Below are positions 13,292 to 62,692 of a stretch of 64,000 nt of DNA, piece after piece. This stretch comes from Pseudomonadota bacterium. Its GTDB lineage: Bacteria; Pseudomonadota; Gammaproteobacteria; Xanthomonadales; Ahniellaceae. The stretch lies in assembly GCA_022843465.1 (NCBI GenBank), contig JALHNO010000001.1, forward strand, positions 198,787 to 262,786, read 5' to 3'. The position numbers were made by a program, and so were the translations under genes. A model generated the notes under the pieces. The model searched no databases, had not been told where the DNA came from, and saw only the letters and a list, made by a program, of their open reading frames with translations. The first letter of the stretch is position 1; each line of letters starts with the position of its first letter.

Positions 13292-15388
13292 ATGCGCAAG
13301 ATGATGATCTGCCTGGCAGGGCTGATGGTGTTCAGTATGGCCGCGGGCGCCAATACCTTTGTCGTGGATGCCACCAGCAGCGAGGTCGATGCCAATCCGG
13401 GCGACGGTATGTGCCGGACCGCCGGCGGGCTGTGTACGTTTCGCGCTGCGGTGATGGAGAGCAATGCCCTGGCCGGCGATGACTTGATCCACTTCAATAT
13501 CGCGCCGGGTGGCATTGCGCGCATCCAGCTGGCGCACACCGTGGGTGGGGTGACCTCGTCACTGGGCATCACCGATACGGTCACCATTGATGGCAGCACC
13601 CAGCCAGGATTGGGCGGCCAGCCGCGGATCGAGATCACCTGCTTCAATGCCTTCAACGGCCTGTTGGTGAATGCCCCGAACGTGCAGATCCGCGACGTCG
13701 CGTTCACCGGTTTTCCGATCGCCGGGATTCAGGTGCTCGCCGACCAGGCGCTGTTGCAGCGTGTCTGGTTCGGCAAGCGGCTTGACACCCAGGCCGTGTT
13801 GTCGAATGGCCGCGATGTGATCATCGGTGCCGATGAAACGCGGGTGGAACGCGCGCGCTTTGCCGGCAATGGCGCCGGCATCGAAATGCTGCCACTGGGC
13901 AATTCGAGCTACGTCGTCGATTCCTTCTTCGACGTCTTTGTCGATCCCGGTGCGCTCTGCAGCCCGGTGGCAAACCCGCTTGTGCATGTGCGCGGCAGCG
14001 GGCACGAGATCGGGCCCGGCAATGTGTTCGCGCCTGGCAATGCGCCTGCGGTACTTGCCGAAGGCACCAGCAGCAGCCTGGTCAGCGGCAATCTGTTCGG
14101 CCACGATGCCAGTGGGGCAGCGCTCTGCACAGGCACGGGTGGCGCGATCTTCGTCGTCGATGGCGTCCTCGACATCAGCGCCAACACCATCGGCGGACTG
14201 GGCAATGACGCAGTCTCGCTGCTGCGTGCCGATGGCAGCTACATCCATGGCAACCGGATCGGTGTGAACGCACTGGACGGGGCGGCTCCGATCGACGGCA
14301 GCGGAGTCCGCGTCGAAGATTCGGATGACGTGGTCATCGGCCGCCGTCGCGATGGCAGCGAAGACGGCAACATCGTCGGCCATGCGCTGGAGAGCGCCAC
14401 CATCTGCAACCAGGGCGTGATCGTCCTCACCAGCAACGCCCTGGGAACCGATTTTGGCGGCCTGACTGACCTCGGCAATGCTGGCCCGGCATTGGACATC
14501 AATGATTGCCAGGTGGTGAGCAGCTTCAACCACTTTGCCAACAGCATGATCGGTGTGCGGGTCCTCGGGGACAGCGCCCGATTTGACTCGAGTGGCGATG
14601 TGTTCTCGGGAAACGATGGCCTGCCCGTCGATCTGAATGGCGACGGTCCCACCGCCAACGATCCGGGCGACGTCGATATCGGGCCGAACGGGCTGCTGAA
14701 CACCATCGAGGCCGCGATGGTGGCCGACACCTATATCGAGTTCGATGCGGGCAGCACGCTTGCCGCGGGTACCTATGTCGCCGAATTCTACGGGGCTGAA
14801 AGTTGCGCTCGCGATATCGGTGGCGTGTCCTATGGAGACGGCCGCTATGTCGGCGGCGAGCTGCCATTCACGGTGGACGGTTCCGGCGCGCCCTCCCTGC
14901 TGCGATGGGGCGTCGCGATCCGCTTCGCCTACTGGTTGATCCGCATCCGCCACATTGCCTCTGGGGCCAGTTCGGAGTTCTCGCGCTGTTTCCGTCAGTC
15001 GGGTGGCTATCTGGGCGATCGCGTCTGGCGCGACTACAACCAGAATGGTCTGCAGGATCAGCGCGAGCCCGGCATCCCCGGCATCACGGTGACCTTGATG
15101 GATGGTGCCGGCAACGCACTCGACAGCCGCATCACGGGTGCCGATGGGCGTTACCGCTTTGCCGACCTTCCGACCGGATCCTATCGCCTTGGCTTCGGCC
15201 TGGCCGCAGCCCACAAGTTCACCCTGCTGGATGCCGGCCCGGACGACATCGACAGCGATGTGATCATTGCGCAGGGCCGCACCGCGCCCTTCCTGTATAC
15301 CTTTGGCACGGTCGACGTCAGTCGTGACTGTGGCCAGATTCCGGAACTGTTTCTGCACGACTTCGGAGAGTTGCGCAGTGGGCCATGA
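13292..15388 (+). CDS. Secreted CSLREC / parallel beta-helix protein with SdrD-B-like C-terminal domain
   Basis: About 698 residues. A signal peptide (MMICLAGLMVFSMAAGA) precedes TFVVDATSSEVDANPGDG, then CRTAGGLCTFRAAVMESNA, the CSLREC domain that heads many large bacterial surface proteins. Residues about 60-500 show the short repeating strands of a right-handed beta-helix (IRDVAFTGFPIAGIQVLAD, VEDSDDVVIGRRRDGSEDGN). Near the C-terminus, GDRVWRDYNQNGLQDQREPG followed by GITVTLMDGAGN is an SdrD B-type Ig-like repeat. The start has GAGAGGGGG upstream. Such proteins are secreted or displayed and may bind surfaces or polysaccharide. No sorting tail is visible at the C-terminus. It lies directly ahead of the sigma/CHAT operon but with a separate start. 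Confidence 0.85.
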   Translation: MRKMMICLAGLMVFSMAAGANTFVVDATSSEVDANPGDGMCRTAGGLCTFRAAVMESNALAGDDLIHFNIAPGGIARIQLAHTVGGVTSSLGITDTVTIDGSTQPGLGGQPRIEITCFNAFNGLLVNAPNVQIRDVAFTGFPIAGIQVLADQALLQRVWFGKRLDTQAVLSNGRDVIIGADETRVERARFAGNGAGIEMLPLGNSSYVVDSFFDVFVDPGALCSPVANPLVHVRGSGHEIGPGNVFAPGNAPAVLAEGTSSSLVSGNLFGHDASGAALCTGTGGAIFVVDGVLDISANTIGGLGNDAVSLLRADGSYIHGNRIGVNALDGAAPIDGSGVRVEDSDDVVIGRRRDGSEDGNIVGHALESATICNQGVIVLTSNALGTDFGGLTDLGNAGPALDINDCQVVSSFNHFANSMIGVRVLGDSARFDSSGDVFSGNDGLPVDLNGDGPTANDPGDVDIGPNGLLNTIEAAMVADTYIEFDAGSTLAAGTYVAEFYGAESCARDIGGVSYGDGRYVGGELPFTVDGSGAPSLLRWGVAIRFAYWLIRIRHIASGASSEFSRCFRQSGGYLGDRVWRDYNQNGLQDQREPGIPGITVTLMDGAGNALDSRITGADGRYRFADLPTGSYRLGFGLAAAHKFTLLDAGPDDIDSDVIIAQGRTAPFLYTFGTVDVSRDCGQIPELFLHDFGELRSGP

Positions 15389-15467: not shown

Positions 15468-16334
15468 ATGCCTGCAATCGAACCCAGCTCCGATCCGGCC
15501 GACCAGATTGCGCTGCCCGTCGAGAACCCCGGGCAGTCGCGCGTACGCCATGATGACCGCGCCTTGCTGGCCGGCTTCGAGCTGGATGTCGACAGCGCCT
15601 GGCGCGCGTTTCTGCAGCGCTATGCGACGCCCATGCTGCGCTGGCTGCAGCGCCGCGAAGATGATGTCGATGCCGCGCATGATCGCTGGCTGGAAGTCTG
15701 CGAGCGTCTGTGCGCCGATCGCTGTGCGCGGCTGCGTCAGGTCCGTCTGCACGAGCAGCAGCCCTGCCTGTGGCCCTGGCTGATGACGGTGATGAACCAT
15801 GGGGTGATCAATGCACTATGGGCCCGGATCGGCCGTGCCCGGGTACCCGCCAAGGTGCGCGCGCTCGGTGACGCGGCCAGTCATCTCTATGCCGCCATGG
15901 TCCACACCGGTGGTGCCGCGCTCACCTGCATCGAGGCCGCTGCGATGCGCTATCCGGGTATCGAGACATCGGCCTGGTTGCTAGCCTGGGAGGAACTGCA
16001 GGCGGTGCTCAATGCTGCTGATCGCGGCTGGATTGCCAGCTATTACGTGCGTCGTCACGGTGCCGAAGACCTGGTCGAAGTGTTCGACAGCCTGGCCGCC
16101 GAGGATGATCCGCAGGACTGGACCGAGCGCAGTCAGGTCGCCGCGCGACTGGGTCGCGGTCTCGCCCTGCTCTCAGCGCGGCAACGGCTTGCGCTGCAGT
16201 TGCGTTTCGAGCAGGAACTTCCGCACGCATCGATCGGTGCCCTGATCGGAACCGGCGGCAGCGGAGCGCGTCATGTGCTGCGCGAGGCGCTGGCACAGCT
16301 GGCGCAGCACATGAATCCGGAGGCGCAGCGATGA
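15468..16334 (+). CDS. Divergent sigma-70-family (ECF-like) sigma factor
   Basis: 288 residues. The C-terminal third, LGRGLALLSARQRLALQLRF followed by ELPHASIGALIGTGGSG and ARHVLREALAQL, fits sigma region 4, the helix-turn-helix that contacts the -35 element. The middle (DSAWRAFLQRYATPMLRWL, DDVDAAHDRWLEVCERL) resembles region 2 but is divergent. A long insert lies between them. The ATG at 15468 is the first in frame followed by plausible protein. The stop overlaps the next start by four bases (ATGA), coupling it to the zinc-finger anti-sigma gene. Together with that partner and the TPR-CHAT gene it forms a tight three-gene operon. Region 2 divergence leaves some doubt whether it acts as a true sigma factor. 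Confidence 0.75.
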   Translation: MPAIEPSSDPADQIALPVENPGQSRVRHDDRALLAGFELDVDSAWRAFLQRYATPMLRWLQRREDDVDAAHDRWLEVCERLCADRCARLRQVRLHEQQPCLWPWLMTVMNHGVINALWARIGRARVPAKVRALGDAASHLYAAMVHTGGAALTCIEAAAMRYPGIETSAWLLAWEELQAVLNAADRGWIASYYVRRHGAEDLVEVFDSLAAEDDPQDWTERSQVAARLGRGLALLSARQRLALQLRFEQELPHASIGALIGTGGSGARHVLREALAQLAQHMNPEAQR

Positions 16335-16885
16335 AACTGGACTGCCTGAGTCGTGAACAGCTGCTGGCCCAACTGGCAGGCATTGCCAGCGACCGCGAAA
16401 CCATCGAAGCGCATCTGGCCGACTGTGCCAGTTGTCGCCAGCGGGCGATGCGCCTCGTGCTGGAGCGCCAGCTGCCGTCCGCGCCCACACCACAGCGTTC
16501 GCGTATGCGGCCGGCGTGGCTTCCGCTCGCTGCGTTTGCCGGCGCGCTGGTGCTCGGCGTCGCTGTCTACTACCGGGAGCCGGCCCGGACTGGAACACAA
16601 TTCCGCGCCGGCGACCCCGGCACCCTCAGCCTTGCCGTCCACGCGACCGATGCGCGCGGCGTGTTGCAACTGGGCTGGACCCTGCATCCCGAGGCCATCG
16701 GATATCGCATTCGCTGCTACGCCGGTGGCGATGTCGCCTGGCTGGATCAGGAAATGCAGGTACCGCTGTTGAATCTGAGCGCACCACAATGGCAGACAGC
16801 CCCAGCGGGAAGCCGCTGTCGCGCGGACGCCCAGATGCCGGCCGGAGACTGGGTGATCGGCAGCGAAGGCATGCTTTCGCCGTGA
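16331..16885 (+). CDS. Membrane anti-sigma factor with zinc-finger (ZAS-like) motif
   Basis: 184 residues. An N-terminal helical segment carries HLADCASC, which fits the HX3CX2C zinc-binding anti-sigma motif (H28, C32, C35). A single membrane helix (WLPLAAFAGALVLGVAVYY, about residues 63-81) follows, with Arg before it, predicting a cytoplasmic N-terminus and a periplasmic C-terminus. The periplasmic part is a short beta-rich domain with fibronectin-like texture (LQLGWTLHPEAIGYRIRCY). It starts inside the stop of the sigma gene and its own stop overlaps the GTG of the CHAT gene (GTGA). It should hold the sigma factor inactive until a signal reaches the periplasmic domain. Confidence 0.78.
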   Translation: MKLDCLSREQLLAQLAGIASDRETIEAHLADCASCRQRAMRLVLERQLPSAPTPQRSRMRPAWLPLAAFAGALVLGVAVYYREPARTGTQFRAGDPGTLSLAVHATDARGVLQLGWTLHPEAIGYRIRCYAGGDVAWLDQEMQVPLLNLSAPQWQTAPAGSRCRADAQMPAGDWVIGSEGMLSP

Positions 16886-19602
16886 AGCGGATCCTGCTGT
16901 GGCTGCCCGGCCTCGGCCTCATCCTGCTGATCTGCTGGGAGCTCGCTGCGTACCGCCATGCCGAGTTGTCGGGTCAGAGCGTGCAATGCCCGCAACAGGC
17001 GCTCGCCCATGCGCAGTCGGCCACGCGCGGCTTCTGGCGACGCCCTCAGCGCATGCAGCACTGGCTGGCGCTGGCCCTGGCGCAGCGTGATTACAGTGTC
17101 CTGGCCTTGCATGGCGATCGGCTCGGTAGCGAGCACCCCGCATTGCAGGCAAGTATTTCGCTCGCGCTGGATAGTGCTGGACATGCGCGCGCGCAGCCGC
17201 TGGATGCCGACATGGTGCGCGCACTCTGCGCTGACGATCCCGGTCACTGCATCGAGCTGCGCATCACCGCCGCGCAGTGGTGGCTGCAGCGCGGCGACCA
17301 GCCCCAGCTTGCGCCGTCAGTGCTCGGCGTGACCGTCGCGGACTGTCTGCGCACGAGGTGCGTGGCTGCCGACGTCCGCCTCATCGACGCCGCCCTGCAA
17401 CTCAGTTGGCGTCTGCGCAGTGCGCGCGGTGAAGTGCATGACTGGCTGGCACAGCCGGATCCGCGGCTGGAGGCCACGGCGCGGACGCTCTGGCAGGCGC
17501 GCGCGGCCCTCGATCGTGATCAACTGGATGCTGCCGAGTCGGCGCTGGCAGCATTCAATGCCGACTGCGCAGGCCCCGACCAGCAGATTTCCGCGGCGCT
17601 GCTGCGCTCTTCGCTGGCCCTGCGCCGGGAGCGCTATCAGGACGCACACCAGGCGCTGTCCAGCGCCCGCCAGCAGATCGCAGGCAGCGGACAGCTGCGT
17701 GGTGCCGGCCAAGTGTTGCCGCACACCGCCTACCTCGCGCTCCGCCAGGGTCACTGGCAGCGCGCCGCCGCCGACTATCGCGCGTTGTCGGCCAGCGACG
17801 ACGCCTGGCAGCGACGCGACGGATGGGCCGGCCTCGGCCATACCCAGATGCACCTCGGCGCCTACGCCGAAGCCGACCAGAGCTATCTGCGCGCGCTCGA
17901 AGAGGATCTGCAGATCGCTGCCGGAGATCCGCGCTTCCGCAGCCGCATCCTGAGCATGCGCGCGCAATCGGCATTGCAGCGACGGAAGCCGGCGCTGGCC
18001 GAAGAGATCGTTGCAGAAGCCCTGCGTTTCGCCGAAACCGGCGACGACCTGGCCGGACGCGTCACCGGCTGGCTGACGGTCGCCGATGTACGGCATCGGC
18101 TTGGCCAGTCAGCGGCCGCACTCGACGCGATCGACTTCGCCTTGTCGCTGCAATGGCAGACCGGACCTGGAGACAGTTCGCCCTTCCTGTCGACCCAGTA
18201 TGTGCAGGCGATTGAACGCGTGCACGCACTGGCCCGTGACGCGCCCGAATTGCGCGCGCGCGCCCTCGGGACCCTCTGGGGGCTGCTCGAGGCGATGCGC
18301 CATCGTCCGCTCTGGCAGAGCCCAGCGGCGCGACCGTCCGCTGGCGCGCGGATGGCTGTCGATCCGGAACTGATGAGTCGCCACCTCGATAGCGATAGCC
18401 AGGTCCTGGTGTTCGGGTTCGCCGGCGAGCAGGCGTTCGTGCTGCGTCTGGATCGAGCTGGACTGGTCCTCACCGATCTGCCCGCAGCGCGCGCCGGGCT
18501 GGAGGAATTGTCGGCACGCTGGCTCGGCGCGATGCGGCAGGCACAGCATGGCGTGTCGCCAGCGCATCTGGCTGGCCTGAGCACGCAACTGCATGCGGCC
18601 CTCATGCAGCCGATCTACGAGGCGGGCTTGCGGCGTGGGACGCGACTCATCGTGCTCGGCAGTGGCGCGCTGCGCAGTCTGCCGTGGCCCGGTTTGCAGG
18701 ATGCCGTCAGCAAACGCTTCCTGATTGAAGACCATGAGGTGCTCCATGTCGATACGCTGTTCTGGTCGCTGCGGCCGGCCTTGCAGAGTACACAGGGTCA
18801 GCTGGTCATCGCTGCGGCGGGCGCACCGCCCGGCGCCCGCGCCGAGGCCGAGTGGCTGGCGGGTCGCCTGGATACACCACTGATCGACGCGGCGCAGACC
18901 GAGCGCGATGACTTGCTGGGCCAGCTGTCCGGGGCCAGCCTGGTCCACTTCGCGGGCCACGCCAATGCCGACGCCGGCAATCCGCTCAACGCCTATCTGC
19001 AACTTGGCGATCCCGGGGGAAAGTCGGGGCGCTACACCGTGGCCGAGATTCTGCGCAGCCGGGTATCGGCACGCCTGATCGTGCTCGGCGCCTGCGAAAC
19101 CAGTTTCACCGGCCAGGCCAGCGACTGGACCCTGCCGGTGCAATCCGACCCGGCCAGTGCCTTCATCCATGCCGGGGCCTTTCAGGTAGTCAGCAGCATC
19201 CTGCCCGCCCACGATGAGACGACTGGTGCCCTGATGCGCGCGTTCTATCGGCATCTGCCCGATCACGATGCGGTCGCGGCGCTGGCCCTGGCGCAACGCG
19301 AACTCGCTGCCACTCAGCCACCCGCACTGTGGGCGGGGTTTCGCATCAGTGGCAGCTTTCTGGAAGATGCCGCGACTGCATCATCGATACCGAGCCTGGA
19401 ATCGCCGGGGTCTGGCCGAAGTCGCCATACTGGTGGCCCCTGGCGCACTGTTGCGCAGGGGATGTTGGCGCTGCAATCGCCAAGGATGGAACGGGTGGAG
19501 CGATCATGGCAGCACAGCGCGATATCGATGTTGACGATGCACTGGAAGACTTCGAGCGCCGCCACATCGCATTCGACGGCAACAGCAAGCGGGTGCTGGT
19601 AG
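16882..19602 (+). CDS. Membrane-anchored TPR-CHAT protein (caspase-like protease)
   Basis: 906 residues as read. The GTG start overlaps the anti-sigma stop and leads straight into KRILLWLPGLGLILLICWEL, a membrane anchor with positive charge on the cytoplasmic side, so the bulk should be periplasmic. Residues about 150-480 are TPR-like helical pairs (DQLDAAESALAAFNAD, EADQSYLRALEEDLQIAAG). Residues about 620-830 form the CHAT domain, with both catalytic residues present: LVHFAGHANAD (H693) and IVLGACETS (C738), then DPASAFIHAGAFQVVSS. CHAT domains are clan CD cysteine peptidases related to caspase and separase. After LWAGFRISGSF the frame continues about 80 residues with no domain and runs 97 bases into the next gene, suggesting a lost stop. 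It may cleave the anti-sigma or another periplasmic target; this is inference. Confidence 0.85.
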   Translation: MKRILLWLPGLGLILLICWELAAYRHAELSGQSVQCPQQALAHAQSATRGFWRRPQRMQHWLALALAQRDYSVLALHGDRLGSEHPALQASISLALDSAGHARAQPLDADMVRALCADDPGHCIELRITAAQWWLQRGDQPQLAPSVLGVTVADCLRTRCVAADVRLIDAALQLSWRLRSARGEVHDWLAQPDPRLEATARTLWQARAALDRDQLDAAESALAAFNADCAGPDQQISAALLRSSLALRRERYQDAHQALSSARQQIAGSGQLRGAGQVLPHTAYLALRQGHWQRAAADYRALSASDDAWQRRDGWAGLGHTQMHLGAYAEADQSYLRALEEDLQIAAGDPRFRSRILSMRAQSALQRRKPALAEEIVAEALRFAETGDDLAGRVTGWLTVADVRHRLGQSAAALDAIDFALSLQWQTGPGDSSPFLSTQYVQAIERVHALARDAPELRARALGTLWGLLEAMRHRPLWQSPAARPSAGARMAVDPELMSRHLDSDSQVLVFGFAGEQAFVLRLDRAGLVLTDLPAARAGLEELSARWLGAMRQAQHGVSPAHLAGLSTQLHAALMQPIYEAGLRRGTRLIVLGSGALRSLPWPGLQDAVSKRFLIEDHEVLHVDTLFWSLRPALQSTQGQLVIAAAGAPPGARAEAEWLAGRLDTPLIDAAQTERDDLLGQLSGASLVHFAGHANADAGNPLNAYLQLGDPGGKSGRYTVAEILRSRVSARLIVLGACETSFTGQASDWTLPVQSDPASAFIHAGAFQVVSSILPAHDETTGALMRAFYRHLPDHDAVAALALAQRELAATQPPALWAGFRISGSFLEDAATASSIPSLESPGSGRSRHTGGPWRTVAQGMLALQSPRMERVERSWQHSAISMLTMHWKTSSAATSHSTATASGCW

Positions 19603-20336
19603 CGGGCAGCGGGCCTGCCGTCATCGTGATGACCGAAATGCCCGGCATCACGCCGCAGGTCGCGCGCTTCGCGCGCTGGGTCCGCGACGCCGGATTCACC
19701 GTCTACCTGCCCTCGCTGTTTGGATGCGATGGCGCCGTGCCCACTGCCGAGGAGGGGTTGGCGGTGCTCAAGCGTGCCTGCGTCAGCGCCGAGTTTCGCG
19801 CCTTTGGCGCCAATCACTCGAGCCCGGTGACCCAGTGGCTGCGCGCGCTCGCGCGACTGGCGCACGCACAGTGCGGTGGTCCCGGCGTGGGCGCGATCGG
19901 CATGTGCTTTACCGGAAATTTCGCGCTGACGATGATGCTCGAAGCCTCGGTTCTGGCCCCTGTGCTGGCGCAGCCCTCGCTGCCGTTCGACGAGCCCGGT
20001 GGGTTGGAAATCGCGCCGACCGAACTGCAGGAAGTCGCAGCCCGCCTGCATCGCGAGGACCTCTCCGTACTGGCGTACCGCTTTGACGGCGATCGTTACT
20101 GCAGGGCGGAGCGATTTGCCGCCTACCGCGATGCACTGGGCGAGCGCTTTGTCGCGCATGTACTGCCCGACTCTGCTGCCCGCTGCAGCGGCCTGCCGCC
20201 CTTCACCGATCGCGTAGTCGCCAGCCCGCACAGCGTGCTGACTGCACATCTGATCGATGAGGCCGGACAGCCGACCGTGGCGGCCCGCGATGAGATCCTG
20301 GCGTTCTTTGCAGGCAGACTGCACCCGCCCACTTGA
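19506..20336 (+). CDS. Dienelactone hydrolase-family alpha/beta hydrolase
   Basis: 276 residues. GMCFTGNFA places a cysteine nucleophile (C134) at the G-x-C-x-G elbow, as in dienelactone hydrolases. EMPGITP near the N-terminus and the final PHSVLTAHLIDE, with the likely catalytic His, complete the family pattern. These cytoplasmic enzymes open lactone rings; many homologues are carboxylesterases of unknown substrate. The ATG at 19506 is preceded by a weak GGAGCG, and the start lies inside the extended 3' end of the CHAT gene in another frame. I regard this start as real because the protein begins with normal family sequence. A functional link with the CHAT operon is not evident. Confidence 0.83.
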   Translation: MAAQRDIDVDDALEDFERRHIAFDGNSKRVLVAGSGPAVIVMTEMPGITPQVARFARWVRDAGFTVYLPSLFGCDGAVPTAEEGLAVLKRACVSAEFRAFGANHSSPVTQWLRALARLAHAQCGGPGVGAIGMCFTGNFALTMMLEASVLAPVLAQPSLPFDEPGGLEIAPTELQEVAARLHREDLSVLAYRFDGDRYCRAERFAAYRDALGERFVAHVLPDSAARCSGLPPFTDRVVASPHSVLTAHLIDEAGQPTVAARDEILAFFAGRLHPPT

Positions 20337-45158: not shown

Positions 45159-48164
<3,006 letters not shown>

Positions 48165-59094: not shown

Positions 59095-59372
59095 GGGGCC
59101 TCCTTTGACCGGCGCGCAACAATGGCTCCTTGTAGCGCTTGTTCCGTCTGCAGTTTGAGTGACGGTAGGCACAATTGTCCCAGTGTCGTGTTCGCTGTGG
59201 CCACCGGTTGGCATTCCAGATGCCGTCTATCCGGGAACCAATGGCCATGAACTGCGTCCTCTCCGAGCGTGCGGCGGTCGACACTTTCCACGCGGGGACG
59301 CCAGCCCATGCTGACGCCACGGGCAGGACTGGCAGTATGCTCGCGGTCCATTGCCAGTCAGCGGCCGCAGAC

Positions 59373-59933
59373 ATGAGTGAGGCTACCCTCGGTCAACACA
59401 CGACCGCCCTGCTGCTGGGCCGGATTCGCGATGGCGATCCGGAAGCCCGGGTTGCCCTGGTTGCACGGATCGAGCCACTGCTCAGGCGCTTCGCTCATGG
59501 CCGTGTGCCGCAACTTCTGCGCCACCAGGAGGACACCGCCGATCTGGTGCAACTGACCTGGCTCAAGGTGATCGACAAGCTCGACGTCATCGAGCCGCGC
59601 GAGCCCGGCGCGTTTTTCGCTTATCTGCGTACCGTTCTGCTCAACGCCCTGCGCGAATCACTGCGTCGCCACGGTCGCTCGCCGATCGACGCGGGTTCGG
59701 ATGTCGGTGAGGCAGTGCAGTCGGTGTTGCCGGCCGCCAATGTCGATCCCGACGACTGGGTTGCCTGGGAACAGGCCCTCGCGGCACTGTCGCCTGAGCA
59801 CCGTGGACTGGTGCTGATGCGCTTCGAATTCGGCATGAGTTTCGGCGAGATTGCCGCTGAACTCGGCGAGTCCCCGGATGGCGTGCGCATGAAACTCAAC
59901 CGGGCGCTGGCGCGCATGGCCGGCGCGTCATGA
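59373..59933 (+). CDS. ECF-type RNA polymerase sigma factor paired with a Ser/Thr kinase
   Basis: 186 residues. Region 2: RFAHGRVPQLLRHQEDTADL then VQLTWLKVIDKLD. Region 4: LAALSPEHRGLVLMRF followed by MSFGEIAAELGESPDGVRMK. Both are clear, so this is a better sigma factor than the one at 15468. Its sequence fits the ECF group usually located beside Ser/Thr kinase genes. The start at 59373 (MSEATLGQ) is chosen because the upstream part of the frame is not protein-like; no strong ribosome-binding site is seen. Stop overlaps the kinase start by four bases. It probably drives an envelope- or surface-protein regulon under kinase control. Confidence 0.9.
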   Translation: MSEATLGQHTTALLLGRIRDGDPEARVALVARIEPLLRRFAHGRVPQLLRHQEDTADLVQLTWLKVIDKLDVIEPREPGAFFAYLRTVLLNALRESLRRHGRSPIDAGSDVGEAVQSVLPAANVDPDDWVAWEQALAALSPEHRGLVLMRFEFGMSFGEIAAELGESPDGVRMKLNRALARMAGAS

Positions 59934-62692
59934 CGGCGACTGACGATGCGCTGCAGCAGTTGATTGCGCGTATCGGCGCAGGCGAGTCCGTCGATCTCGA
60001 TCGTATTCCCGTCGAGCTGCGCACCTTGCCGGAAGTGCAGCGGCTGCTGCAGATGGCGCGGGTGGCCGGTGCGCTCGACCGCAATGCCAGCGATGCTGCC
60101 GCTGACGATGTAGCACCGGCACAGCTCGGCAGCTGGCGACTGGTGCGCCTGCTGGGCAGCGGCGGCATGGGCGAAGTCTGGCTCGGCGACCGCAGCGATG
60201 GCGCGGTCGAGCATCGGGTGGCGATCAAGCGACTGCGTATCGACGCCGGTCATTTCCGCGAGCGACTGGCCAGTGAGCGGCGCATCCTGGCTCGCCTGGA
60301 GCATCCGAATATCGCCCGCTTCATCGATGCCGGCGTCGATCCGCGCGGCGCGCCATGGCTGGCACTGGAGTATGTCGATGGTGCGCCGATCAGCGAATGG
60401 TGCAGCCGGCAGTCGCTGTCATTGCAGGCGCGGCTGCAGTTGTTCCAGAAGGTCTGCGCAGCGGTGGGTCATGCCCATCGCCATCTGATCGTGCATCGCG
60501 ATCTGAAGCCGGCAAACGTGCTGGTCAATGCCGAAGGTGAGCCCAAACTGCTCGACTTCGGCATCGCCAAGTTGCTCGACGGCAGCAGCAGTGAACACAC
60601 CAGCAGCGCGTTGACACCCGCCTATGCTGCACCCGAGCAACTGCGTGGCGGCGAGATATCCACCGCTACCGACGTCTACGCCCTGGGCTTGCTGCTGTTT
60701 CGCGTTCTGGCCGGTGTCTTGCCCGATACCCGCACCGGGGATTCGGCGGCGGCGGTGCTGGCGCGACTGGATGAGGAAGAAACCCGAAGGCCGAGTCGGC
60801 ACGCCCTGCGCGCCAGTCAGGCCTTGCCGTATCCGGCGACGGCGCTGAAGGGCGATCTGGACGCCATCGTCGCGCAGGCGATGCGGGCACAGCCGGAAGC
60901 GCGTTACGGATCGGTCGCAGAACTTGCGGCCGATATCGGCCGCTATCTCGATGCGCGTCCGGTGCGCGCGCGGCCGCCCACCCGGCGCTATCGCTTCGCA
61001 CGCTTCGTCAAGCGCAATCGCGGCGGTGTCGCGCTTGCCCTGATTGCACTGTTCGCCCTGGTCGCCGGCACGCTGATCTCGCTCAACCAGGCCATGCGCG
61101 CCGAGCGCGAGTCGGCCGCGGCGCAGCGCGCGCTTGCGCGCGCCGAGCGGGTCTCGGAGTTTCTGGGTTCACTGTACCGCGAGCAGGACCCGCTGCAGCG
61201 CGCTGGCGCCCGCCCGCGCCCGCCCGAAGCATTGATCGCCGATGCGGTGGCCCGTGTGCAGCGCGAGCTCTCCGATGATCCGCTCAGCCAGGCACAACTG
61301 CTGCGCGTGCTGGGCGAGGCGCAACTGAATGTCGCGGCGACGGACGCGGCGCGCGCCACGCTGGAGCTGGCCGGTCGACGCGCACTGGACGGTTCGGCGC
61401 CCTTGCTTGCAGCCGACATCGACAGCGTGCTGGGTTCGCTGGCGTTGCGCGAGCTACGTCTGGACGAAGCGGCTGGCCTGTTCGATCGGGCACTGCAGGT
61501 GGCGGCGGCCGAGCGTGGCAGCGACAGTCTCGAGGTGGCGCGCATTCGCGCGCGCCGGGCCGCCAGCCTGGTGCAAGTCGGGCGATTCGAGGAAGCGCGT
61601 GGTGAACTCGAGTCCGCCTACCGGCAACTGGCACTGCGACTGGGTCCAAACGCCAACGAAACCATCAATGCGCAGCTCTGGCTCGGCGCGGCCCAGGAAC
61701 AGATGCGCGACGATCCGGCCGCCCTGCTGACGTTGCGCGCCAATGCCGCCGCGATCGAATCGGCATTCGGACCCGAAGACGCGAGACTGGTGCGGACGCT
61801 GACTTCGCTCGGAGAAGTGTTGCGCCGAACCCGCGATTTCCCGGCTGCGCGTGCGGTGCTTCAGCGCGCGGCAGTGATCGCACGCCGGCAGTTTGGCGAC
61901 CATCATGTCCACCTCGTCAGTGCCCTGGTACGCATGGCCACTCTGGAGCGCGATGCTGGCGAGTTGCAGCAATCGATCAAGGTGCTGGATCAGGCGGCAC
62001 TCGCCATGTCGTCCGACACCGACACCAGCACGCGGGCACAGCTGTTCGCGACCCGTGGCGGAACCTGGATCGAACTCGGCGACGGCGTGCGCGCCGAGCC
62101 CGACCTGCGCGAAGCGCTGCGGCTGCGCAGCGAGTCCGGTGGCACGCGCTCCGGCCTGGCCTGGTTCACCCAGGTGCAACTCGGGCAGGCCCTGGCCCTG
62201 CAGGGAAAAATCGACGAGGCGCACGCGCTGCAGTCAGAAGCTGCCGAGGAATTGCGCAAGCAACTCGGTCCGGACGCCTACCAGAACGGCATGGTTGCGC
62301 TGCGTCGCGCCCAGACTTATGCGCTGGAGCAGGATTGGTTGCCGGCCGTGGTGCAGATGCGCGAGGCGGTGCGCCTGGTCGAGCGTACCTATGGGCGTGA
62401 ACACTATGGGCACTTCTCGTGGTCGCTGGAACTCGCCAGCTTTCTGGGCCAACTGGAAGACGGCCATGCAGAGGCTGCCGAGTTGATCGATGATCTGCTG
62501 GCGCGCTGGAGCGGCAAGGCCGAGATCGAGGCCGATTACGCGCGGCTGATCGCGTTGCGCTGCGATCTGCATGCGCGCGCCGGAAGACCGGCGGAGGCTG
62601 CGCGGCTGGCACGCAATGCGCTGGCCAGGAAGGAACTGCAGGCCAGCGCTGCGCAACGGCAGGCGCTGGAACGCTACGCCGGGGGCAACTGA
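59930..62692 (+). CDS. Eukaryotic-type Ser/Thr protein kinase with periplasmic TPR domain
   Basis: 920 residues. The kinase domain (about 68-340) has LLGSGGMGEVWLGD, K100 in VAIKRL, HRDLKPANVL with D191 and DFGIAK with D209, all intact. A membrane helix is at about 364-385 (GVALALIALFALVAGTLIS). The C-terminal 500 residues are TPR-like (LRLDEAAGLFDRALQVAAAE, RTRDFPAARAVLQRAAVIAR). Overlap of ATGA with the sigma stop makes these a co-translated pair. In related clusters the kinase phosphorylates and so activates the sigma factor, which I take as a likely mechanism here. Confidence 0.92.
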   Translation: MTATDDALQQLIARIGAGESVDLDRIPVELRTLPEVQRLLQMARVAGALDRNASDAAADDVAPAQLGSWRLVRLLGSGGMGEVWLGDRSDGAVEHRVAIKRLRIDAGHFRERLASERRILARLEHPNIARFIDAGVDPRGAPWLALEYVDGAPISEWCSRQSLSLQARLQLFQKVCAAVGHAHRHLIVHRDLKPANVLVNAEGEPKLLDFGIAKLLDGSSSEHTSSALTPAYAAPEQLRGGEISTATDVYALGLLLFRVLAGVLPDTRTGDSAAAVLARLDEEETRRPSRHALRASQALPYPATALKGDLDAIVAQAMRAQPEARYGSVAELAADIGRYLDARPVRARPPTRRYRFARFVKRNRGGVALALIALFALVAGTLISLNQAMRAERESAAAQRALARAERVSEFLGSLYREQDPLQRAGARPRPPEALIADAVARVQRELSDDPLSQAQLLRVLGEAQLNVAATDAARATLELAGRRALDGSAPLLAADIDSVLGSLALRELRLDEAAGLFDRALQVAAAERGSDSLEVARIRARRAASLVQVGRFEEARGELESAYRQLALRLGPNANETINAQLWLGAAQEQMRDDPAALLTLRANAAAIESAFGPEDARLVRTLTSLGEVLRRTRDFPAARAVLQRAAVIARRQFGDHHVHLVSALVRMATLERDAGELQQSIKVLDQAALAMSSDTDTSTRAQLFATRGGTWIELGDGVRAEPDLREALRLRSESGGTRSGLAWFTQVQLGQALALQGKIDEAHALQSEAAEELRKQLGPDAYQNGMVALRRAQTYALEQDWLPAVVQMREAVRLVERTYGREHYGHFSWSLELASFLGQLEDGHAEAAELIDDLLARWSGKAEIEADYARLIALRCDLHARAGRPAEAARLARNALARKELQASAAQRQALERYAGGN

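Follow-up and report, generated by a model that had tools for sequence, protein, structure and literature searches.

An ECF-like sigma factor operon with a membrane zinc-finger anti-sigma factor and an exported TPR-CHAT protein, and the linkage of CHAT and sigma factor genes in Lysobacterales

We analyzed a stretch of 64,000 nucleotides (the window; contig JALHNO010000001.1 of assembly GCA_022843465.1, positions 198,787 to 262,786), in which three overlapping genes encode a divergent sigma factor of the extracytoplasmic function (ECF) type, a membrane zinc-finger anti-sigma factor and an exported protein with tetratricopeptide repeats (TPR) and a caspase-like CHAT domain. The operon is an envelope-signaling unit composed of these three proteins, with an envelope location that is predicted from their sequences, and the exported CHAT protein very likely belongs to the same unit. 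This protein probably works on the outside of the cell membrane, within the signaling route of the sigma factor, as trigger or as output. We propose that it cleaves the membrane regulator in its outer part, a step to which we assign a probability of roughly 0.4. CHAT proteases are common in bacteria and, to our knowledge, few of their substrates are known outside CRISPR systems. The linkage found in Lysobacterales provides a concrete substrate to test, namely the neighboring membrane regulator.

Linkage of CHAT and sigma factor genes

The survey covered 219 genomes of the order, in which CHAT loci were chosen solely by their Pfam match; most of these loci were fetched and annotated with our own gene finder and sigma factor profiles. 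An ECF-like sigma factor gene was located upstream on the same strand and within 2.7 kb in 50 of the 94 Pfam-chosen loci with enough upstream sequence, while about 1.2 of 94 (about 1%) would be expected from the 47 Sigma70_r4_2 matches in the 5.18 Mb genome of the window; these linkage counts are not phylogenetically independent. Accepting a sigma factor gene within 3 kb on either side and either strand, 66 of 99 CHAT loci were linked. The same method applied to other orders of the same class detected a same-strand upstream sigma factor gene for two of 41 CHAT reading frames, and for four of 41 in all. All 23 CHAT-linked sigma factors that were scanned, including that of the window, match TIGR02937 and 22 of them match Sigma70_r2. 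On the CHAT tree, a quick tree with long branches, the sigma link requires at least 23 changes and was thus gained or lost many times.

A simple export rule was passed by 42 of the 52 sigma-linked CHAT proteins versus two of 76 sigma factor proteins. A preliminary description of this DNA had predicted that the CHAT protein and the anti-sigma factor both have periplasmic C-termini; since most sigma-linked CHAT proteins carry export signals, this predicted topology is well supported. Two loci with lipoprotein-like CHAT proteins (L063 and L152) show the reversed order, with the CHAT gene first and the sigma factor gene downstream; L063 additionally carries genes for a small transmembrane protein and a transmembrane anti-sigma-like protein.

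The operon of the window

The coordinates and reading frames of the three genes were confirmed from the sequence, and the gene identities, their order and the two four-base overlaps of the preliminary description were borne out by sequence and profile matches. The features are as follows.

15468..16334, + strand: divergent ECF-like sigma factor of 288 aa, its regions 2 and 4 joined by a long linker (Sigma70_r4, TIGR02937)
16331..16334, + strand: 4-nt start/stop overlap ATGA of the sigma and anti-sigma factor genes (sequence)
16331..16885, + strand: membrane zinc-finger anti-sigma factor of 184 aa (zinc motif in homologs, zf-HC2)
16517..16570, + strand: predicted single transmembrane helix of the anti-sigma factor, residues about 63-80 (model, hydropathy)
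16631..16873, + strand: predicted extracytoplasmic FN3-like beta-sandwich of the anti-sigma factor, residues 101-181 (model, Foldseek, homologs)
16882..16885, + strand: 4-nt overlap GTGA of the anti-sigma factor and CHAT genes (sequence)
16882..19602, + strand: exported TPR-CHAT (caspase-like) protein of 906 aa with GTG start (CHAT PF12770, E=3.7e-33)
16891..16944, + strand: N-terminal export signal/membrane anchor of the CHAT protein, residues 4-21 after KR (hydropathy, rule-based scan)
17554..18159, + strand: predicted TPR solenoid of the CHAT protein, residues about 225-426 (model, fold matches, weak TPR_1)
18580..19356, + strand: CHAT peptidase domain, residues 567-825 (PF12770)
18958..18960, + strand: catalytic His H693 (aligned catalytic column)
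19093..19095, + strand: catalytic Cys C738 (aligned catalytic column)
19380..19602, + strand: probable run-on tail at the end of the CHAT frame; it overlaps the next gene (codon usage)

The sigma factor matches Sigma70_r4 (PF04545) with an E-value of 3.7e-6, above the cut-off, and the sigma70-ECF model TIGR02937 over residues 44-281 with 31.5 bits, below the cut-off. Its region 2 has diverged too far to be recognized by Pfam and gave no region-2 match there.

For the anti-sigma factor, the match to zf-HC2 (E=0.0012) is just under the cut-off. The family alignment with five homologs revealed C5, H28, C32 and C35 as invariant, which together form the full zinc motif C-x22-H-x3-C-x2-C. Thereby the HX3CX2C motif and the one membrane helix described previously were confirmed by homolog alignment and model, and C5 is added as the fourth ligand. 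The outer domain has seven strands in a structure model of moderate confidence (mean predicted local distance difference test, pLDDT, 67.5), the Foldseek matches of this sandwich are mostly FN3 domains and its sequence pattern is conserved among the homologs. The zinc-finger anti-sigma factor should bind the sigma factor and hold it inactive at the inner membrane.

From its GTG start the CHAT protein passes the export rule. Its TPRs are weak by sequence; the solenoid is the sole confident part of the structure model and has TPR fold matches. For the CHAT part, the pLDDT of the model is low and the fold is not confident, so that no active-site geometry was deduced from it. In the CHAT alignment, 99 of 104 proteins have His and 99 of 104 have Cys in the two catalytic columns, and both residues are present in all 52 sigma-linked proteins. 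H693 and C738, already named as the catalytic pair, fall on these two columns. Five CHAT proteins with no sigma factor gene nearby (L164, L165, L168, L169 and L170) carry P/T or P/S in place of the pair and are possible pseudo-proteases. A PDZ sensor domain on the CHAT proteins was considered and rejected, as the Pfam search gave none in the window protein and three relatives (L069, L092 and L098) gave sub-threshold matches only.

According to a codon-usage scan, the CHAT frame loses its coding signal at about 19370-19400, where the frame of the next gene takes over; the last 75 or so residues therefore look like a run-on tail, likely due to a lost stop codon or a frameshift. The next gene (19506-20336) encodes a dienelactone-hydrolase-like protein and overlaps the CHAT reading frame by 97 nt.

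Recurrence of the exact operon

A profile of the sigma factor, searched against 396 Lysobacterales genomes, detected five full-length members with E-values from 1e-113 to 1e-149; the next matches cover region 4 only, and their E-values, at 1e-13, are higher by 100 orders of magnitude. In all five members the sigma factor gene is followed by genes for a zinc-finger membrane anti-sigma factor and a TPR-CHAT protein, or the start of one. The same three-gene order with overlaps, for which the preliminary description had suggested a search, thus recurs in other Lysobacterales, and because of this recurrence a chance arrangement is not an explanation. The operon is complete in the window and in genome G170 only. 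A search with the sigma factor alignment traced four members of the subfamily to metagenome-assembled genomes of uncultured Lysobacterales/Xanthomonadales in a public collection. Within the family of the window (10 genomes) the CHAT protein has just one further match, a weak one in genome G003, the other genome of the same genus gave no match to this protein, and a single-protein scan of public genome contigs yielded no relatives.

Regulators and additional genes in related operons

Three kinds of regulator were found between the sigma factor and CHAT genes: zinc-finger or degenerate zinc-finger anti-sigma factors as in the window, other proteins with a single transmembrane helix, in many cases with the gene of a small secreted protein after them, and transmembrane Ser/Thr kinases. 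The regulators are single-helix transmembrane proteins with outer C-terminal domains. With start codons taken mechanically, the regulator gene starts 1-25 nt before the sigma factor stop codon in 24 of 50 loci. The kinase-type operons, with the order sigma factor, transmembrane Ser/Thr kinase with an outer DUF4384 domain and CHAT protein, comprise L113, L126 and L080 (kinase and DUF4384 checked with Pfam) and L120, L128, L133, L136, L137, L138 and L101 (profile matches). DUF4384 was considered as an outer domain common to all regulators and rejected, since it occurs in the kinases and in none of the ten anti-sigma-type regulators scanned.

Several of the related operons contain further genes. 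A protein resembling animal haem peroxidases is encoded between the membrane regulator and the CHAT protein in L147, L130 and L144 (checked with Pfam in L147 only), and a trypsin-like protease at the same position in L153. A small secreted-looking protein directly precedes the CHAT protein in L061, L062, L064 and L075 to L078; the one tested, from L061, had no Pfam match. In two genomes, a gene divergent from the sigma factor operon encodes an exported-looking protein of about 948 aa for which Pfam gave no match (L059:8337-11186 and L067:11-2854).

Trigger or output

The preliminary description had suggested that CHAT could cut the periplasmic part of the anti-sigma factor and release the sigma factor, which is plausible. 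In the mechanism that we propose, the exported TPR-CHAT protein would face the FN3-like domain of the anti-sigma factor on the outer face of the membrane that holds the latter. Its TPR part would sense an envelope signal and activate the CHAT domain, which would make the first cut in the outer part of the anti-sigma factor. The M50 site-2 protease encoded in the genome of the window (E=1.6e-64) would cut next, cytoplasmic proteases would then free the sigma factor, and the freed sigma factor may re-transcribe its operon. In the kinase-type operons, removal of the outer domain by CHAT could relieve autoinhibition of the kinase. A wider proposal, which we put forward tentatively, is that the exported TPR-CHAT proteins of Lysobacterales are caspase-like proteases that make the first cut in the outer domains of exchangeable membrane regulators (zinc-finger anti-sigma factors, other transmembrane proteins and Ser/Thr kinases), so that ECF sigma factors would be activated by a protease trigger separate from DegS and from CRISPR. 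If true, a caspase-type first cut would be added to envelope signaling, and it would suggest a way in which a pair of CHAT protein and sigma factor inhibitor could have been taken over by CRISPR systems.

In favor of the proposed mechanism are the two gene overlaps, the recurrence of the operon and of the sigma link, the export signals and the conserved catalytic pair of the sigma-linked CHAT proteins, the single-helix regulators with their outer domains, the M50 protease of the genome and the precedent of Csx29. Several observations weigh against cleavage of the regulator by CHAT. Sigma factor and CHAT are the constant parts of the operons, and an output role of CHAT would account for this about equally well; about ten operons have a transmembrane Ser/Thr kinase in place of the anti-sigma factor, and some have inserted genes for exported enzymes (a trypsin-like protease, a haem peroxidase or small secreted proteins). 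No sigma factor gene was found in the fetched stretch for 33 of 99 CHAT loci, and export signal and intact catalytic pair also occur in CHAT proteins with no sigma link. Loss of the pair in non-sigma CHAT proteins only was considered as a telling contrast and rejected, since all five form one clade and the loss represents a single event. Furthermore, the window CHAT protein is a long-branch outlier in the CHAT tree and its CHAT part has no confident fold; the contigs of G106 and G155 end inside the TPR part, before the CHAT domain, and that of G215 ends soon after the third gene begins.

It is quite possible that CHAT is instead an output of the system: the sigma/anti-sigma pair would sense envelope stress in another way, e.g., by a DegS-like site-1 cleavage, and the sigma factor would induce the operon to which it belongs; the exported CHAT protease would then serve to process proteins that are secreted or located at the surface, or to attack foreign material in the envelope. 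Related CHAT proteins adjoin membrane kinases, with no anti-sigma factor to cut, so that an output role may apply in place of a trigger role. This agrees with a constant pair of sigma factor and CHAT next to a regulator that varies (zinc-finger anti-sigma factor, other transmembrane protein or Ser/Thr kinase with DUF4384), with the other exported enzymes in some operons (L153, L147, L061 and L062), with the large secreted proteins adjoining several sigma factor operons (13292-15388 in the window; L059 and L067) and with the many exported CHAT proteins that have no sigma factor gene nearby. On the other hand, no one shared substrate candidate accompanies CHAT, as the neighbors differ, and the tight overlap with the anti-sigma factor gene resembles that of a regulator gene as much as that of an effector gene. 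We hold the trigger and output readings close to each other. A non-proteolytic role similar to that of RseB, in which the TPR part binds the FN3-like domain and shields or exposes it for another protease, is rather improbable: TPR domains are binding modules, the FN3-like outer domain is a binding fold and the position in the operon matches that of RseB-type co-regulators, but all 52 sigma-linked CHAT proteins keep His and Cys, which suggests that catalysis is needed. That the genes are neighbors by coincidence and share no functional link is highly improbable; the exact version is rare, and genomes of the same genus and the same family do not have the operon, but its order recurs in five subfamily genomes and about half of the sampled CHAT loci are sigma-linked versus about 1% expected.

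Further genes in the window

Upstream of the operon and on the same strand, a gene for a secreted beta-helix protein that contains an SdrD_B domain (13292-15388) ends 79 nt before the sigma factor gene; this is possibly a surface protein of the same regulon. At 59337-62692 of the window, the gene of a second sigma factor has a 4-nt overlap with that of a Ser/Thr kinase with TPRs (kinase 59930-62692) in an ECF43-like arrangement. A further Ser/Thr kinase-like reading frame is located at 45159-48164 on the - strand. The anti-phage defense models of PADLOC gave no match for the three operon proteins.

Comparison with known systems

The claim of the preliminary description that no described system has such an order was too strong, as there are precedents in Csx29/Csx30/CASP-sigma (PMC10028731) and in CHAT domains near ECF54 (PMC8999054). 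In type III-E CRISPR systems, the TPR-CHAT protease Csx29 cuts the sigma factor inhibitor Csx30 and thereby relieves CASP-sigma (PMC10028731). Both there and in the window a TPR-CHAT protein is encoded with an ECF-like sigma factor and its likely inhibitor; however, the window CHAT protein carries an export signal and the anti-sigma factor is a zinc-finger membrane protein. In the PDB, the CHAT chains matched by sequence were those of Csx29 structures only. Membership in type III-E CRISPR was rejected, since the genome of the window gave no match to RAMP/Cas7-11 (PF03787) and the CHAT protein scored 21 bits with the Csx29-family model NF041237, far under the cut-off of 300.

ECF54 sigma factors have CHAT, subtilase and carboxypeptidase domains in their genetic context, and proteolytic control was proposed for these sigma factors, which have no anti-sigma factor (PMC8999054). 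ECF sigma factor genes with CHAT-domain neighbors are thus common to both, whereas in the window a membrane anti-sigma factor (16331-16885) is encoded between sigma factor and CHAT. The RseA/DegS/RseP cascade is similar in its membrane anti-sigma factor with an outer domain and in the M50 site-2 protease, present in the genome of the window; the proposed first cut differs, as it would be made by an operon-encoded exported caspase-like cysteine protease and not by a PDZ-trypsin protease. In CalpL/CalpT/CalpS, protease, anti-sigma factor and ECF sigma factor also form one module, with a Lon-type protease triggered by cA4 (PMC11417357), but CalpL is not a CHAT protein and no export signal is described for it.

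ECF43 sigma factors act with transmembrane Hanks-type kinases, as in EcfK/PknS (PMC13147305). Several relatives of the window operon likewise have a transmembrane Ser/Thr kinase between sigma factor and CHAT, while the window operon itself has the zinc-finger anti-sigma factor instead of a kinase. EACC2-caspase systems combine a caspase-type domain, a TPR protein and an ECF sigma factor in one neighborhood, and their coupling was proposed; these were, however, proposed to be conflict systems with an EACC2-caspase as their core, and an anti-sigma factor is not mentioned (PMC8195603). The transmembrane anti-sigma factor DdvA (PDB 8rot) was a Foldseek match to the TPR-CHAT model and likewise belongs to anti-sigma signaling; this is a weak lead only, since the model covered by the match is mostly of low confidence, and DdvA differs in being a single polypeptide. 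In the literature searched, we found no paper on exported CHAT proteins in ECF operons of Lysobacterales, and the group tables of the ECF classification could already note some of these findings. As far as could be found, the exported version of CHAT and its lineage-wide wiring to ECF operons are new.

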